From NCBI GenBank assembly GCA_019637955.1, contig JAHBUS010000002.1:310001-374000 (forward strand): DNA of 64,000 nt, given 5' to 3'. Under the pieces are notes generated by a model. The model was not told the DNA's origin. It saw only the letters and a list, made by a program, of their open reading frames with translations, and searched no databases. This DNA is from Pseudobdellovibrionaceae bacterium. GTDB taxonomy: Bacteria > Bdellovibrionota > Bdellovibrionia > Bdellovibrionales > Bdellovibrionaceae. Position numbers and translations under genes: made by a program. Positions within the stretch are counted from its first letter, which is position 1. Each line of letters starts with the position of its first letter. Below, one piece after another: positions 13,114 through 19,645 of the stretch.

Positions 13114-13698
13114 TTATTTATCGGCCATAAGAGATTTCAGCTTCGTATGACCGACCGAAATCAAGAGGCGCAGCGCTTCGAGTTCGCTGCTGAGATTCAT
13201 TTGATTTTTGACTTCCTGAATCATCAGCCAAGAGCGCGTGTCCAGCTCCGGAAAGAGCTGACGGCTGGCCGTGTTCGGAAGCGCAGCTTCGGTTGAGAGC
13301 GGCGTGCTCGGCGTGGGGGCGGTGTGCATACGCGTCCCGCCAGGAATGGCGGTGGAGGTGGGCGGCGGCGGCATGACAACCGTCTGCGGCTGGGGCGGCG
13401 GCGACGGAGGGGTTGCCGCTTGTGTGCGGGTGAGTGTGGGGAGAACCATGTCCATCTCGGCGCCTTCAAATTCACCGATCATGCCCGCGAGATTTTTGAG
13501 TTCCTTTTTGAAGTTCTGAATGCTCGGCCGTTCGAGAGCGCTGTCACCCTGCAGTTTCGCTTTCAAGAAAAGGCTCACGAGAATATCGGGATTGGTGGCG
13601 ATCTCTTTGATGCTTCCGTTTTGGTGCTGCAGCCACTGGTAAGCTTTGACCAGCGTCTCTTTCGTGTATGCCTGAGGGGGAAGCGGATTCATCGTCAT
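13114..13698 (-). CDS. Pro-rich protein of unknown function upstream of ileS
   Basis: 194 residues. The N-terminal 100 residues are mixed alpha (YTKETLVKAYQWLQ, LVSLFLKAKLQGD), followed by a Pro/Thr-rich linker of about 55 residues (PPSPPPQPQ, MPPPPTST) and a C-terminal alpha segment of about 45 residues (SWLMIQEVKNQMNLSSELEALRLLIS) resembling a short DNA- or protein-binding helix pair. No signal or membrane segment, so cytoplasmic. No family recognised. It probably leads the ileS-lspA-lgt transcript. Confidence 0.75.
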   Translation of the reverse strand: MTMNPLPPQAYTKETLVKAYQWLQHQNGSIKEIATNPDILVSLFLKAKLQGDSALERPSIQNFKKELKNLAGMIGEFEGAEMDMVLPTLTRTQAATPPSPPPQPQTVVMPPPPTSTAIPGGTRMHTAPTPSTPLSTEAALPNTASRQLFPELDTRSWLMIQEVKNQMNLSSELEALRLLISVGHTKLKSLMADK

Positions 13699-13868: not shown

Positions 13869-15401
13869 TTATTGTTGCGAAAAGTCTTTTGCTACAATCC
13901 CGTATTTCTCGATTTTGCGTAAGAGCGTCTTCTTCGGGATGTTCGCGTGCAGCGCCGTCTGGTTGATGCGGCCTTTGAACATCTTCAAAGCTTTCATGAT
14001 GAACTCTTTCTCGAAGGCTTCTTTCTGCGCATTGAAATCCAGCGCGCCGCCACCGAGTCCCGGCTCCATCGTTTCGGCGTCACCGAGATCATCATCGTCG
14101 GTCACGGCGTCGTCCATCTCGTCATCCATCAGCGCCCGGACCGGCAGCATGGTTGTGGCCGGAATGGAGGGACCGCCGACCGGCAGCGCGGGCGCACCGG
14201 AGAGGATTTCGGGAAGAGTCGTGCCGGTCGCGTTCAAAACCACCTCGGGGAGCGAGCTGATAGTCAGCACGTTCGAGGCTTCCATGACGAACGAATGCTC
14301 GATCACGTTTTCGAGTTCGCGGATATTGCCCGGCCAGTCGTACTTTTTCAGCACGGCCATGGCGTCGGCGCTCACCGCGGTGATGCGCTTGCCATGGCTC
14401 TGGTTGAACTTGCGGATGAACATGTTGATCAGATGATCGACGTCATCCTTGCGGTCCACCAGCGAAGGCAAGAAGATCGGAATCACGTTCAAACGGTAGA
14501 ACAAGTCTTCACGGAACGTGCCGGCTTTCATCATGTCTTCGAGCGGGCGGTTGGTCGCCGCGATGATGCGAACGTTGGTCGAAATCTCGCGGTTCGCGCC
14601 CACGGGAACAAACATCTTCTCTTGGAGCACCCGCAGCAGTTTGACCTGCATCAAAACGGGCATGTCGCCCACTTCGTCCAAGAACAGCGTGCCGCCCTCG
14701 GCGTACTGGAATTTACCGATCTTGCGTTGATCGGCGCCCGTGAACGAGCCTTTCTCGTGACCGAACAATTCGGACTCGAAAAGGTTCTCGGGAATCGCCG
14801 AGCAGTTGATCGCGACGAACTTGCCGTCTTTGCGGGCCGAGTTGAAGTGGATCGCGCGGGCGACCAGCTCTTTACCGGTCCCCGAAGCCCCGCGAATGAG
14901 CACCGGCGTGTCGACTTTCGACAAGCGGTGGATCACGTTGAACACCTTTTTCATTTGGGTGTTCTGGCCGATGAACTTGCGTCCCTCTTCCATCAGAACC
15001 GGTGCGCTGAACGCGACGTTCGAGATCAGAGTTTGCGCGGCCACTGCGCGGTCGACCAAGGCGATCAAGTCGTCGCCGTTCACGGGTTTCGAGAGGTAGT
15101 TGTAAGCGCCGTCTTTGACGGCCTGAACCGCGTGGTCGATCGAGGCGAAAGCCGTCATCATGATGACGACCGCGCCGGGATTGAATTCTTTGATTTGTTT
15201 CAAGGCTTCAAGGCCGTTCATTCGAGGCATGTCGACGTCCAAGATGGCGACGTCGAAGGCGGCCCCTTCGGCTTTGATCTTTTCAAGAGCGTTGATGCCG
15301 TCAAAAGCCTCTTCGACTTGGTAACGGCCGGTCGACGTGAGCGCGGATTTCACCGAAAGGCGCAAACCCTGATCATCATCGGCCACGAGGATACGAATCA
15401 T
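13869..15401 (-). CDS. Sigma-54-dependent response regulator (NtrC/DctD type) of the peptide operon
   Basis: 510 residues. REC domain 1-120 with acidic pocket ADDD and phospho-acceptor Asp55 (ILDVDMP); AAA+ domain about 150-385 with Walker A GASGTGKE, sigma-54-contacting loop GSFTGA (Ser in place of the second Ala of GAFTGA) and Walker B GGTLFLDEVGDM; then an acidic/Pro linker and a C-terminal Fis-type helix-turn-helix (NQTALHANIPKKTLLRKI). It activates sigma-54 promoters when phosphorylated, most likely by the CHASE2 kinase just upstream. Start chosen at ATG 15401 with GGAGG 9 nt before. Targets are unknown; a perfect inverted repeat 20 nt upstream may be its operator. Confidence 0.93.
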   Translation of the reverse strand: MIRILVADDDQGLRLSVKSALTSTGRYQVEEAFDGINALEKIKAEGAAFDVAILDVDMPRMNGLEALKQIKEFNPGAVVIMMTAFASIDHAVQAVKDGAYNYLSKPVNGDDLIALVDRAVAAQTLISNVAFSAPVLMEEGRKFIGQNTQMKKVFNVIHRLSKVDTPVLIRGASGTGKELVARAIHFNSARKDGKFVAINCSAIPENLFESELFGHEKGSFTGADQRKIGKFQYAEGGTLFLDEVGDMPVLMQVKLLRVLQEKMFVPVGANREISTNVRIIAATNRPLEDMMKAGTFREDLFYRLNVIPIFLPSLVDRKDDVDHLINMFIRKFNQSHGKRITAVSADAMAVLKKYDWPGNIRELENVIEHSFVMEASNVLTISSLPEVVLNATGTTLPEILSGAPALPVGGPSIPATTMLPVRALMDDEMDDAVTDDDDLGDAETMEPGLGGGALDFNAQKEAFEKEFIMKALKMFKGRINQTALHANIPKKTLLRKIEKYGIVAKDFSQQ

Positions 15402-15421
15402 GTGAGAACCTCCACCCATGG

Positions 15422-15488: not shown

Positions 15489-17378
15489 TCAAACTTGCTG
15501 AAGGGGGAGATCGACGGTGAAGGTGGAGCCCTGGCCGGCCGAAGACTCCACTAAAATCGAGCCCTTATGAAGCTCGATGAAGTACTTGGCGAGATAAAGT
15601 CCAAGCCCCGAGCCTTTAATTGGTGACGATTTCGCGGCGGAGGAGCGAAAAAATTTCATGAAAATATGGGGAAGATCTTCGGCGGGAATGCCCGCGCCTT
15701 GATCGGAGACCTGAACCCGGACGAACCCGTTCATTTCTTCGGAGGTGATCAAAACCTTCGAATCCTCGGGGCTGTACTTGATCGCGTTTTCCACCAAATT
15801 CGAGAACACCTGACGGATCAGATCAGGGTCGACCTGGATCGGGAACAGGGGCTCGATCTCGGTGATGAGCTGAATGCGTTTCACCTTGGCGAGGAACTCG
15901 TGTTTGCGCACGACCTCTTCAAGAATCTCGTTGATGTCGCGGGCCTGGCAGTGCAGCTCCACGCCTTGGCTCTCGATCCGCGCGTAATTGAGAATCGAAT
16001 TGATGAAGCGCAAAAGGTCTTCGTTGCTCGAACGGATGTGATCCAGGGCTTCGCGCTGGCCATGGCTCAAGGTGACCGGGTCTTTCATGATGACTTCGGT
16101 CATGCCCTGGATGCGCGCGATCGGCGTTTTCAGGTCGTGGCTCATCATCGAGATGAAGTTGGTCTTGAGCTCTTCGACTTGACTGAGCAATCGGTTTTTT
16201 TGTTGGTACTCCCAGCTGCGGCGGTTCTCGACGATCAGGCGGTAGGGAATAAAGAAGTAGTAGCACAGAAAAATGGCCAGGTACGGATGCGCCATCGGCA
16301 GGATGATCTTGAGCGGCCAGAAGGCCACGAAACCCACCACCGTCAGGATTCCGGCCGCGATCATCAAGAGCCCCATGCCTTTGAGCGGGCGGAGCGTGAG
16401 CACGACGTGCACGGTGAAAATCGAGATGATTCCGGTGAGCAAGAGGTTCACCCAGCCCGGCGCCTCATGCGGCGCCGAATTGCGAATGAACGTGTCGAAC
16501 ATGTTCGCCTGCATCTCGGTGAGGGTCATCGCCGAGGGGTCGCGCGAGAAGGGCGTGCGCACATAGCTCTTCAGCGATTTGCCCAGATCGTCGCCGATCA
16601 GAACGAGTTTGCCTTCGAAGCGCTTGGGGTCCACGGACTGACGGATGAAGTCTTCGAATTTGGTCGTCGCGAACGAGCCATTGCGCTGAAAATCGATGAA
16701 GAGCTGATTGGTCTCGTAAACCTCGAATTTGCCCTTGAGGTTTCCAAGATCTTTGATGTCGGGATTGAACTCGGCCGCCATCTGCGCGTGTCCCAAGGGC
16801 TCGCCTTGATAATCCACCAGCACGCGCCGGGTGACGCCGTCTTTGGCGAACAAATTCAGGTCCGCGGTCTTAGGACCCGCGAGCAGCGGAACGCGGTCGA
16901 AGGGTGCCGGCAGTTTGTTCTGGCCGCTCTCGCCTTTCAAAAAAAGACGGTCGGTCATCTGGTAGCCGCGGTTTGAGTCCGCCAGCAACTGCGCCAGCTC
17001 GCGGCCCTGCTCCACGGTGCCTGACGGTGCGGCGAGGGCGCGGCCCTCCTCCTCTTCGGAGTCGCCGGCTTTGATCAATGGCGTAACGTAGATCACGGCC
17101 TTCGGGTTGTGGGCCAAGAGCGTTCGCACGACGGCGGCGTGGTCGTCGTATCCCGGAATGCGCTTAAAATGTTCGACGGTTTTTTGATCGACCATCACGA
17201 TTTCGACATCGCCCGAAACGGTCGCAAAGGGACGCAGGCGGAAGCGAAGATCGTAGAGGTAGGAGTCGAGAAAATCCAACTTGAGTTGGACGAGCAGAAA
17301 GCTAAAGGCCAGGGCGAAGGCGGCCCTGAAAATCAGGGTCGCCCAGGTTCGAGTTTTGTTCTCGGGCCCGTCGCTCAT
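15489..17378 (-). CDS. CHASE2-domain sensor histidine kinase
   Basis: 629 residues. One N-terminal membrane helix (about 13-35), a CHASE2-like extracytoplasmic sensor (about 40-305, starting SYLYDLRFRLRP and EIVMVDQKTVEHF), three more helices (about 308-390), a short coiled linker, HisKA with MMSHDLKTP (phospho-His near 415) and HATPase with NLVENAIKYS, DQGAGIPAEDL and GSGLGLYLAKYF. CHASE2 reads signals outside the inner membrane; ligands of the family are mostly unknown. Its ATG (17378) overlaps the stop of the 44-residue peptide (ATGA), so kinase synthesis depends on peptide translation. It probably phosphorylates the activator encoded next. Confidence 0.92.
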   Translation of the reverse strand: MSDGPENKTRTWATLIFRAAFALAFSFLLVQLKLDFLDSYLYDLRFRLRPFATVSGDVEIVMVDQKTVEHFKRIPGYDDHAAVVRTLLAHNPKAVIYVTPLIKAGDSEEEEGRALAAPSGTVEQGRELAQLLADSNRGYQMTDRLFLKGESGQNKLPAPFDRVPLLAGPKTADLNLFAKDGVTRRVLVDYQGEPLGHAQMAAEFNPDIKDLGNLKGKFEVYETNQLFIDFQRNGSFATTKFEDFIRQSVDPKRFEGKLVLIGDDLGKSLKSYVRTPFSRDPSAMTLTEMQANMFDTFIRNSAPHEAPGWVNLLLTGIISIFTVHVVLTLRPLKGMGLLMIAAGILTVVGFVAFWPLKIILPMAHPYLAIFLCYYFFIPYRLIVENRRSWEYQQKNRLLSQVEELKTNFISMMSHDLKTPIARIQGMTEVIMKDPVTLSHGQREALDHIRSSNEDLLRFINSILNYARIESQGVELHCQARDINEILEEVVRKHEFLAKVKRIQLITEIEPLFPIQVDPDLIRQVFSNLVENAIKYSPEDSKVLITSEEMNGFVRVQVSDQGAGIPAEDLPHIFMKFFRSSAAKSSPIKGSGLGLYLAKYFIELHKGSILVESSAGQGSTFTVDLPLQQV

Positions 17379-17509
17379 TGCACGCCGGTGGGGCGGCAGC
17401 CCACACCGGGAGAAGTCAGCGATTTCACTGGCTTCACCAACGTGACGTGAGCTTTTTTCGATTGTTTTTTAACGTCCGCGTTCGCGGTTTTCACTTGAAC
17501 TTCAGACAT
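17375..17509 (-). CDS. Putative RiPP precursor peptide (44 residues, single Cys)
   Basis: A short gene overlapping both neighbours: its ATG (17509) lies inside the last codons of the radical SAM gene and its TGA overlaps the kinase ATG. AAGGTGA stands 6 nt upstream, an adequate ribosome site. The peptide has a Lys/Val/Ala-rich leader-like part (SEVQVKTANADVKKQSKKAH, residues 2-21) and a C-terminal part SLTSPGVGCRPTGVQ (30-44) with the only Cys, Cys38, in a Gly-Val-Gly-Cys-Arg-Pro-Thr-Gly context. No aromatic residue, no signal peptide. Placement directly after a SPASM maturase is the pattern of modified-peptide precursors. An in-frame ATG at 17527 would add six residues. I know no family with this core; the role is inferred. 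Confidence 0.65.
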   Translation of the reverse strand: MSEVQVKTANADVKKQSKKAHVTLVKPVKSLTSPGVGCRPTGVQ

Positions 17510-18827
17510 GGCTTTCACCTTTTTCATAACCCCTCGTTTGTTCATAGTACAAAAGTGTTTGTTCGATCAAGAAGCGGGTGCGATCGCAGTAATTTTGATC
17601 CACCCGGTGTTTATCTCCGGTTGCCTGGCGGTGAATGTACATGCAGCCGCCGCCGCACAAGAAGCGGGCCCAGCAGTCCTGGCAGCCGTTTTTTTCGATC
17701 AGGGGAGCCTCGTAGGCTTTGAGCTTGTCTCCCCAGACTTTTCCACCATGGCCGACGACTTCCTTGGGCTCGTTGACGACCCAAGGGCAGGTGTACAGAT
17801 TTTGGCGGGCGTCCATCATCAAGAACGATTTGCCCGCGCCGCAGTAGTTTTCGGTCTGCTGTTGGTTGTCCAAGGCGATGAAGTAACGGTCAAACGTGTG
17901 AATGCGGCGCAGGCCCGCTTCGCCTTCGCTTTCAAAGGCATGGCGCGCGACCTTGCCGATTTCGAGCATGAACGCACGGTTGATCTCCGCCGTCGACTCA
18001 TGGTGGTCGTAGGTGAAATCGAACCAATCGACGTCGAATTGGCGGTAGAAATTGTACGCCGCCATCAGATCGAGGTTTCCTTTGCCGAAAACCCCCGAGA
18101 GCATGACGGTGCCTAAGGCCGATTTTTGCGGCAGCAAACGACGAAGACCTTCAATCACCTGCTCGGTGACACCGCGTCCGCCCTTGGTGGGGCGGCGGGC
18201 ATCGTTAACCTCGGCCGGGCCGTCGATGCTGACGGTGACGTCCATCTTGAAGCGTGCCAGCAAGTCGATATTTTTTTGCGAGAAGAGCGTGCCGTTGGTC
18301 ACGACCGTGAAATCGACTTTCACGCCGCCCGCTTGACCTAAGCGCGACGCCTCCTCGGCGAGGAGCTCGATGCCTTCGGGGTACAGCAAAGGTTCGCCGC
18401 CCAAGAAGGTGAGTCGGAAAGACTCGCCCGCCGGCACTTTGCCGATCAGCTCCGCCAAAGCGGGGAGGGTGTCGGCGACCACGATTTTTTTGATGGGATC
18501 GCCGAAGCTCCCATCGCCACCGGCCGCGCAGTATTTGCAGTGAAGGTTGCAGACTTGAGTGACGTTGATCGTGAGCGCGCGCACGCCCGTCTCGCGCTTT
18601 TCGCGTTGAACGGTTTCGCTCGTGCTGCCGTCCCAATCGAGCAATGCCTGAAGGGCTTCGTCTTGATGGTCGGACGACATCCAAGGCCGCTGAGCCGCGC
18701 GGTTCAAAACATCCCAAGCTTCCGAAGACAAACGAGCCACTTGCAGATTGCGGGCGTGAAAGGCCACGACGTCGCCGTTCGGTCGGCGCAGCACGTGCAG
18801 GTCTTTCAGTTGTTTGGCTTCGTTCAT
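17502..18827 (-). CDS. Radical SAM/SPASM peptide maturase
   Basis: 441 residues. The N-terminal 80 residues resemble a PqqD-type peptide-recognition element (HVLRRPNGDVVAFHARNLQV, then LSSEAWDVLNRA). Radical SAM core: Cys93, Cys97, Cys100 (CNLHCKYC) bind the SAM 4Fe-4S cluster; LTFLGGEPLLYP and VTNGT follow. C-terminal SPASM: NYCGAG, YTCPW, then CX2CX5CX3C (CQDCWARFLCGGGC) and a last NYC, enough for two auxiliary clusters. Such enzymes crosslink or rearrange residues in ribosomal peptides (thioether, C-C) or mature enzymes such as sulfatases; the adjacent peptide favours the former. ATG 18827 used; a GTG at 18833 has GGAG 5 nt upstream and is equally possible. Confidence 0.88.
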   Translation of the reverse strand: MNEAKQLKDLHVLRRPNGDVVAFHARNLQVARLSSEAWDVLNRAAQRPWMSSDHQDEALQALLDWDGSTSETVQREKRETGVRALTINVTQVCNLHCKYCAAGGDGSFGDPIKKIVVADTLPALAELIGKVPAGESFRLTFLGGEPLLYPEGIELLAEEASRLGQAGGVKVDFTVVTNGTLFSQKNIDLLARFKMDVTVSIDGPAEVNDARRPTKGGRGVTEQVIEGLRRLLPQKSALGTVMLSGVFGKGNLDLMAAYNFYRQFDVDWFDFTYDHHESTAEINRAFMLEIGKVARHAFESEGEAGLRRIHTFDRYFIALDNQQQTENYCGAGKSFLMMDARQNLYTCPWVVNEPKEVVGHGGKVWGDKLKAYEAPLIEKNGCQDCWARFLCGGGCMYIHRQATGDKHRVDQNYCDRTRFLIEQTLLYYEQTRGYEKGESHV

Positions 18828-18866: not shown

Positions 18867-18883
18867 GTGCAAAAAAAACGCCT
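18867..18883 (-). promoter_or_regulatory. Weak sigma-54-like promoter before the maturase gene
   Basis: Minus strand: AGGCG-T8-GCA, giving GG-N10-GC spacing with a good TTGCA -12 element and a poor -24 element. The T-tract is shared with the terminator hairpin below, so this match may be incidental. If real, the transcript would start about 25-30 nt before the maturase. Confidence 0.25.
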
Positions 18884-18903
18884 GGTGCGTTTTGCACCAG
18901 GCG
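18871..18903 (-). terminator. Strong intrinsic terminator/attenuator in the leader of the maturase operon
   Basis: A perfect 10-bp stem (CGCCTGGTGC/GCACCAGGCG, 5-nt loop) is followed on the minus strand by eight T. No minus-strand gene lies upstream for about 750 nt (the two genes there are on the plus strand), so it would stop a transcript begun in the 19.0 kb region before it enters the maturase gene: either an attenuator or the end of an unannotated small RNA. Confidence 0.6.
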
Positions 18904-19058: not shown

Positions 19059-19376
19059 ATGACAACAGCCGCGTTGATTTTCACCCTTCTCTCCACGGCG
19101 TCATGGGCGCGCGTTTGCCCGAACAACGACTTCAAAGCCTGCCTGGCGGCTCTGAACAAGAGCTACAAAATGGATCAAGGAAAAAACTTTCGCGCCGTTT
19201 ACGACGATATCTGCGCCACCAATTCGAAGTTTCGTTGCACGAAGATCACCGTCATGGGTGATCCCCAGCAAACGATGACCGAAATTCGCGCCGACAAGCC
19301 GAAGTCGAATCTTTTCTTGGTCACGCACGACGACGGCAAATACATTTATTTCTTCGACGCTAAAGCCGGAAAATGA
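19059..19376 (+). CDS. Small secreted protein of unknown function
   Basis: 105 residues. Short signal peptide (ALIFTLLSTASWA), mature part about 88 residues with four Cys (VCPNND, KACLAAL, DICATN, RCTKI), probably disulfide-bonded outside the cytoplasm. Ends TDHDDGKYIYFFD-like. GGGAGG lies 5 nt before ATG. Overlaps the ferredoxin gene by 4 nt. No family recognised. Pairing a secreted protein with a ferredoxin is odd. Confidence 0.7.
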   Translation: MTTAALIFTLLSTASWARVCPNNDFKACLAALNKSYKMDQGKNFRAVYDDICATNSKFRCTKITVMGDPQQTMTEIRADKPKSNLFLVTHDDGKYIYFFDAKAGK

Positions 19377-19645
19377 AACCCGCCCGCATCGAGTACCGAA
19401 TTGCCGGAAAGTCTTACGAGGTGATCGCGGGTGAGCACGAAACGGTCTTGGACTGCGCGCTGAGAAATTCGATTCCGGCGCCGTACTCGTGCATGGAGGG
19501 CGTGTGCTCCTCTTGCACCGCTTTGGTCCTTGAGGGTGAAGTCGAAGACTTCGTCGGGCACGCTCCGATCGAAGCGCGCGTGCAAACTTGTCAGATGCGG
19601 ATCAAGCCCGGATGCCCGAAACTCATTCTTGATTATGAACGTTGA
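19373..19645 (+). CDS. 2Fe-2S plant-type ferredoxin
   Basis: 90 residues. A one-electron carrier in the cytosol. Cluster ligands: SCMEGVCSSC (Cys-x5-Cys-x2-Cys) and a fourth Cys about 30 residues later (VQTCQMR), the fer2 pattern. ATG overlaps the previous stop, so the two are co-translated. It ends directly against the convergent stop of the HD-GYP gene with no gap. The partner enzyme is not in this window unless it serves the radical SAM maturase (speculative). Confidence 0.88.
   Translation: MKPARIEYRIAGKSYEVIAGEHETVLDCALRNSIPAPYSCMEGVCSSCTALVLEGEVEDFVGHAPIEARVQTCQMRIKPGCPKLILDYER

Follow-up and report, generated by a model that had tools for sequence, protein, structure and literature searches.

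A RiPP-precursor-like peptide gene in a predicted maturase-peptide-kinase-regulator operon of Bdellovibrionales

The short open reading frame lying between two larger genes in the window (the whole stretch of 64,000 nucleotides that was analysed) almost certainly encodes a RiPP precursor. The main point beyond the earlier note on this DNA is that the gene upstream encodes a radical SAM maturase and that the peptide tracks this maturase, not the kinase downstream. Leaving aside any signalling step, the likely arrangement is an operon of maturase, peptide, kinase and regulator under sigma54 control, with the peptide as a RiPP precursor. This operon is agr-like and probably self-activating, and the sequences suggest that Bdellovibrio-type predators may produce a modified peptide coupled to a two-component system.

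A short gene with overlaps at both ends

The peptide gene occupies positions 17375..17509 on the minus strand (44 aa, MSEVQVKTANADVKKQSKKAHVTLVKPVKSLTSPGVGCRPTGVQ) and was identified by reading of the frame, homologues, a hidden Markov model (HMM) and dN/dS in relatives. Its 44 codons run from an ATG at 17509..17507 to a TGA at 17377..17375. The stop codon of the upstream maturase gene (TGA, 17504-17502) falls within the frame, producing an 8-nt overlap; at the other end, a single ATGA (17378-17375) contains both the peptide stop and the kinase start, which overlap by 4 nt. The frame, overlaps of 8 nt and 3-4 nt and a ribosome site had been described in the earlier note, which gave no strand, and the sequence bears them out. 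A Shine-Dalgarno (SD) sequence, AGGTGA, is located at 17515..17520 (minus strand) within the 3' end of the maturase coding sequence, over its final codons and 5 nt ahead of the ATG at 17509; it pairs with the anti-SD at a duplex energy of -4.3, the random median being -1.7. Two alternative in-frame ATGs lie upstream, at 17524 (49 aa) and 17545 (56 aa); the former has a purine run at a spacing of just ~2 nt and the latter has no SD. Because the SDs of these alternatives are worse or missing, 17509 is the best candidate for the start, with other starts possible.

Downstream sequence was read at the 64 maturase loci of the main set. A peptide gene followed the maturase at 63 of them, which are all of the loci with enough sequence, the exception (L079) ending 31 nt past the maturase. 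The peptides were located in part by an automatic pattern and in about 25 cases by eye or with a locus-specific motif; the simple pattern gave no match at one further named locus, L143. Among the 62 distinct peptides at the 63 loci, most share the sequence H[IV]KK[VI]KP near the N-terminus (the HxKKxKP leader), and a Gly-rich stretch is frequent. Cysteine is present in every distinct peptide (a single Cys in 61, two in one), a C-x-P motif with Pro at position +2 of the Cys is found near the C-terminus in 60 of the 62, and Gly occurs at -3 of the Cys in 40. The window peptide is a divergent member whose nearest relatives, at L034 and L035, likewise end in GCRPTG. Peptide alignment places its leader motif, HVTLVKPVK (family consensus HIKKVKPLK), at 17423..17449 and its putative core, GVGCRPTGVQ, at 17378..17407, both on the minus strand, with the single Cys codon of the C-x-P motif at 17398-17396. 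In family f4 and its relatives (L091, L093, L129, L137, L142 and L149) a C-P-E-x ending replaces C-x-P and may define a subclass of core. At another locus, L057 (G040:C37), two tandem precursor genes (TTGLSCIPIG and TTGLACIPSG) follow one maturase, at +17..+109 and +135..+251 from the maturase stop. The HMM of the peptide family had its sole match in the window's own genome at this locus (E 9e-7), and clear matches (E about 1e-4 or better) were obtained at maturase loci only. No Pfam or NCBIfam model matched the peptide, and membership in the known precursor families was rejected on this basis.

A frame of 44 aa is near the level expected of chance ORFs, many of which have such a size in this region, and the frame might be accidental or a mere device for handing ribosomes to the kinase. 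Against this, the motifs are kept in 62 distinct peptides, and dN/dS, for pairs close enough to measure, is mostly 0.06-0.26, far below 1, with one long divergent pair at 0.74. The peptide SDs are also strong, 83% of them at -5 kcal/mol or below compared with 10% of random sites, a figure that is not blind since starts were chosen partly by SD. On the substitution ratios, the peptide is under purifying selection. The reading frame is open across the family at the examined loci with enough sequence; no other member of the genus was found. Chance is excluded because homologous peptides recur at the same place in many genera with low dN/dS; unless all of the homologues were alignment artefacts, the accidental frame is refuted, and it is given practically no weight. 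That the frame is a real gene is as good as certain. The earlier note had judged chance very unlikely from the position and ribosome site of the frame, and this judgement stands on homology and low dN/dS, whereas the double overlap alone is weak evidence. At this length the gene may escape ordinary gene finders, and the earlier suggestion of a real gene missed by length cut-offs is strongly supported by the family homologues, the HMM and purifying selection.

The upstream gene encodes a radical SAM maturase

The gene at 17502..18827 (minus strand, 441 aa) was assigned as a radical SAM/SPASM peptide maturase based upon Pfam PF04055, alignment and fold. A 24-row alignment of maturases contains an invariant CxxxCxxC motif and seven further invariant Cys residues of the SPASM type in the C-terminal region. 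The AlphaFold2 model (pLDDT 89) has an RRE-like domain of three strands and three helices (bbb-aaa) at its N-terminus. Its fold matches CteB over residues 7-432, the RRE region included, with a Z score of 36.2, and CteB was the top solved structure for the maturase by sequence as well as by fold. In CteB, a SCIFF thioether maturase, the corresponding N-terminal domain is the RRE that binds the leader (PMC8326336), and by analogy docking of the peptide's leader motif on the maturase RRE would be expected. The best NCBIfam models for the maturase were the nif11-type, PapB, QhpD and SCIFF models, all peptide or thioether maturases, and the protein fell under every NCBIfam cut-off. The best single score was for TIGR04064 (E 2e-47, 162 bits vs a cut-off of 519), and the models for the SCIFF/ranthipeptide class gave 121 vs 425 bits (TIGR03974) and 157 vs 340 bits (NF047865). 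The locus thus carries the traits of a RiPP of the radical SAM type, namely a short precursor gene beside a maturase that has the radical SAM motif, the SPASM cysteines and an RRE-like N-terminus.

Downstream of the peptide, and starting in the ATGA overlap, lies a sensor histidine kinase gene (15489..17378, minus strand) whose product has CHASE2 (24-315), HisKA and HATPase_c domains by domain search. It is followed by the gene for an NtrC-type response regulator (13869..15419, minus strand), in which the same kind of search identified a receiver, a sigma54-activating AAA+ domain and a Fis-type HTH. The order maturase, peptide, kinase, regulator is kept in about 60 genomes of many genera across Bdellovibrionales. 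Among the 64 loci, the kinase follows the maturase on the same strand within 3 kb at 61 and the regulator at 58, several of the exceptions being at contig ends. At E 1e-30 the maturase was detected in 81 of the 369 genomes of the phylum, among them most members of the family and representatives of some related families; the named records that bear it are Bdellovibrio, Pseudobdellovibrio and other Bdellovibrionales. The kinase and regulator are also present in relatives that lack the maturase, and no family peptide was found upstream of the kinase at the 19 maturase-less loci with sequence there; the genomes are related, so these counts of linkage and absence are not independent. Since neither these 19 loci nor the HMM searches yielded a clear peptide match away from the maturase, the peptide goes with the maturase rather than with the kinase, as would be expected if it were the substrate of that enzyme. 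There is a strong case that the peptide is the substrate of the upstream maturase.

The same evidence bears on the picture drawn in the earlier note, in which translational coupling fixes the dosage of peptide to kinase, and on its corollary that the unmodified peptide is a small regulator of the kinase dosed in this way. In this genome the kinase start overlaps the peptide stop and has no SD above random, and local coupling at the ATGA is plausible because the kinase start lacks an SD of its own. However, the peptide-kinase spacing is not conserved: it is -4 or -1 in a few loci, whereas most others have about 1-120 nt between the two genes. The peptide also follows the maturase in its distribution, and none was found in the 19 kinase-bearing genomes that lack a maturase. 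Coupling is not a conserved trait, because relatives mostly have gaps and a strong peptide SD. The local part of the earlier claim holds as plausible, and a fixed dosage as a general feature was rejected because the gaps vary. An unmodified regulator of the kinase is improbable.

Several candidate origins and further loci were also considered. A mobile or phage origin was rejected, the viral collection holding distant radical SAM proteins only. A module in other phyla was likewise rejected: the radical SAM relatives found beyond this phylum, at 28-33% identity, had no similar kinase or regulator nearby. One record labelled as a 'Streptomyces griseus' metagenome-assembled genome (L103, CALQIT020000002.1) bears the Bdellovibrionales module, and its label looks wrong.

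A predicted sigma54-type promoter upstream of the maturase

A sigma54-type -24/-12 site with a score of at least 12 was present within 260 nt upstream of the maturase at 86% of 63 loci. Of 2,824 control windows taken at these loci, 5.9% had such a site, as did 6% of the maturase-end windows. The scorer was built from the textbook consensus after the first few sites had been seen, so that the threshold was not blind; the controls were scored identically. The site in the window (AGGCGTTTTTTTTGCA, 18868..18883, minus strand) is weak, with a score of 12.1 of 15.6 that puts it at the weak end of the range, and most relatives have a stronger site at a similar place. In alignments of the largest genus the -24/-12 element, for example TGGAACGCTTATTGCA, stands out as a conserved block located 30-40 nt ahead of the maturase, and a second conserved block farther upstream, TGAAATAGTTTCCTTTTG, may be an activator site. 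A perfect 9-bp hairpin (GCCTGGTGC/GCACCAGGC, 18880..18902, minus strand) followed by U8 (to 18870) resembles a terminator and overlaps the -24/-12 site in the window. An attenuator ahead of the maturase was rejected, as the hairpin is not conserved in relatives. Eight genomes were searched with the conserved upstream block GAAATAGTTTCCTTTTG; near-exact copies were mostly confined to this locus and two-mismatch copies were no commoner than those of a reversed control, so no regulon was found.

Sigma54 is encoded in this genome. With a sigma54 activator among the products of the operon, the simplest interpretation is that the operon would activate itself. As to agr-like autoactivation, sigma54 sites are enriched upstream of the maturase, and the regulator is, by its domains, a sigma54 activator that may act on its own operon. 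For the family, the operon is likely to be sigma54-autoregulated, judging from the promoter motifs and domain content.

Conserved neighbours

The conserved neighbours, which were clustered and annotated in part, included no prominent exporter or peptidase. CHASE2 is regarded as an extracytoplasmic sensor, so a route from the peptide to the sensor is missing among these genes. A conserved protein of ~200 aa and unknown function (13114-13698, minus strand) lies between the regulator and ileS. It is kept in 50 of the 64 loci and is also found beside the kinase and regulator in most maturase-less genomes. A divergent pair at 19059-19645 (plus strand) encodes a 105-aa protein of no known function and a 2Fe-2S ferredoxin, overlapping by 4 nt (ATGA). 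One member of the family, L208 (G007), has a kinase 57% identical to that of the window and lacks the maturase, the peptide and a clear sigma54 site, an apparent clean loss; a ferredoxin-like protein is encoded upstream of its kinase.

Discussion

A mechanism can be proposed in which the sigma54 promoter before the maturase would drive a single transcription unit of the four genes, as the promoter footprint suggests (the site is weak here). The RRE of the maturase would bind the HxKKxKP leader in the form of a beta strand, as the fold match to CteB implies, and the maturase would then modify the core at the C-terminus, in the region of its one invariant Cys, most likely by forming a thioether. 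The most conserved candidates for the acceptor are the Gly at -3 and the Pro at +2 of the Cys. After cleavage and export by enzymes encoded outside the operon, the modified peptide may act on the adjacent CHASE2 kinase. The kinase would phosphorylate the NtrC-type regulator, which would activate the sigma54 promoter of its own operon and so complete a positive feedback loop arranged like that of agrBDCA. That the product of the peptide is the signal of the kinase is put forward tentatively.

The best rival to this reading is that the peptide is a RiPP whose product has another use, as a redox cofactor, a metal-binding compound or some other small product, and that the two-component system merely switches the operon on. 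In 19 genomes the kinase and regulator are retained although maturase and peptide are missing, which implies that the pair has a role independent of the peptide, and this persistence somewhat favours the rival; about half of the maturase-less genomes have a sigma54-type site upstream of the kinase. The near-universal conservation of the gene in the family and its slowly evolving core would also agree with a cofactor or another housekeeping product, and an exporter is not prominent among the conserved neighbours. On the other hand, the linkage of maturase and peptide to this kinase is very stable across deep divergence, and there are no prominent conserved tailoring or user enzymes, unlike what would be expected from pathways such as PQQ. 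A product that is not the ligand of the kinase is conceivable, if somewhat doubtful.

In its fullest form, the signalling reading is that these predators carry a core peptide-pheromone circuit, in which a single-Cys peptide modified by a radical SAM enzyme would act through a CHASE2 kinase and a sigma54 activator on its own operon, perhaps governing steps of the predatory cycle. This larger proposal is speculative and is offered with caution. No description of a maturase-peptide-kinase-regulator system was found in the full-text literature searched, in which most subscription papers are not covered, nor was any peptide signalling system of Bdellovibrio-type predators found there. The module is present in nearly all genomes of the Bdellovibrio family examined. 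The operon is a directly testable signalling candidate in predatory bacteria and offers a ready pair of substrate and enzyme in which to look for a radical SAM modification of a new kind, on a core with a single Cys in a C-x-P motif.

Comparison with known systems

In streptosactin (GggA/GggB), a small peptide has a Cys joined to a nearby Gly. A Cys-Gly linkage of this kind may occur here, given the frequent Gly at -3 of the Cys (40 of 62 peptides), but the maturase is only weakly similar to GggB (E 5e-16). The radical SAM maturase family of Nif11-like peptides (TIGR04064) gave the maturase its best single NCBIfam score (E 2e-47), yet the 162 bits obtained are far below the cut-off of 519, and for the peptide neither NCBIfam nor Pfam contains a matching model. 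The SCIFF or ranthipeptide systems (CteA/CteB and PapA/PapB) are alike in having a maturase with RRE, radical SAM and SPASM regions adjoining a short precursor; CteB is the closest solved structure, and the PapB, SCIFF and QhpD models are among the best NCBIfam matches of the maturase. A thioether to a beta or gamma carbon characterises the ranthipeptide class. A role in quorum sensing has been reported for SCIFF ranthipeptides (PMC8326336, PMC8102284). SCIFF peptides differ in having six Cys in about 45 residues, whereas the peptides described here have one (61 of 62 peptides; two in one). The maturase here also lies far below the cut-offs of these families, and the gene set is that of a two-component operon.

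The agrBDCA operon has the order processing enzyme, precursor, sensor kinase and response regulator, with autoactivation. Here, too, an enzyme, a precursor, a sensor kinase and a regulator are found in one predicted operon with short gaps or overlaps, and autoactivation is likely. The parts differ, in that the enzyme is a radical SAM maturase, the kinase is of the CHASE2 type and the regulator is a sigma54 activator, with no transporter or protease found; the resemblance is an analogy and implies no shared ancestry. If the pheromone circuit were true, it would represent an agr-like system assembled from unrelated parts, together with a new class of precursor and modification built on a C-x-P core.
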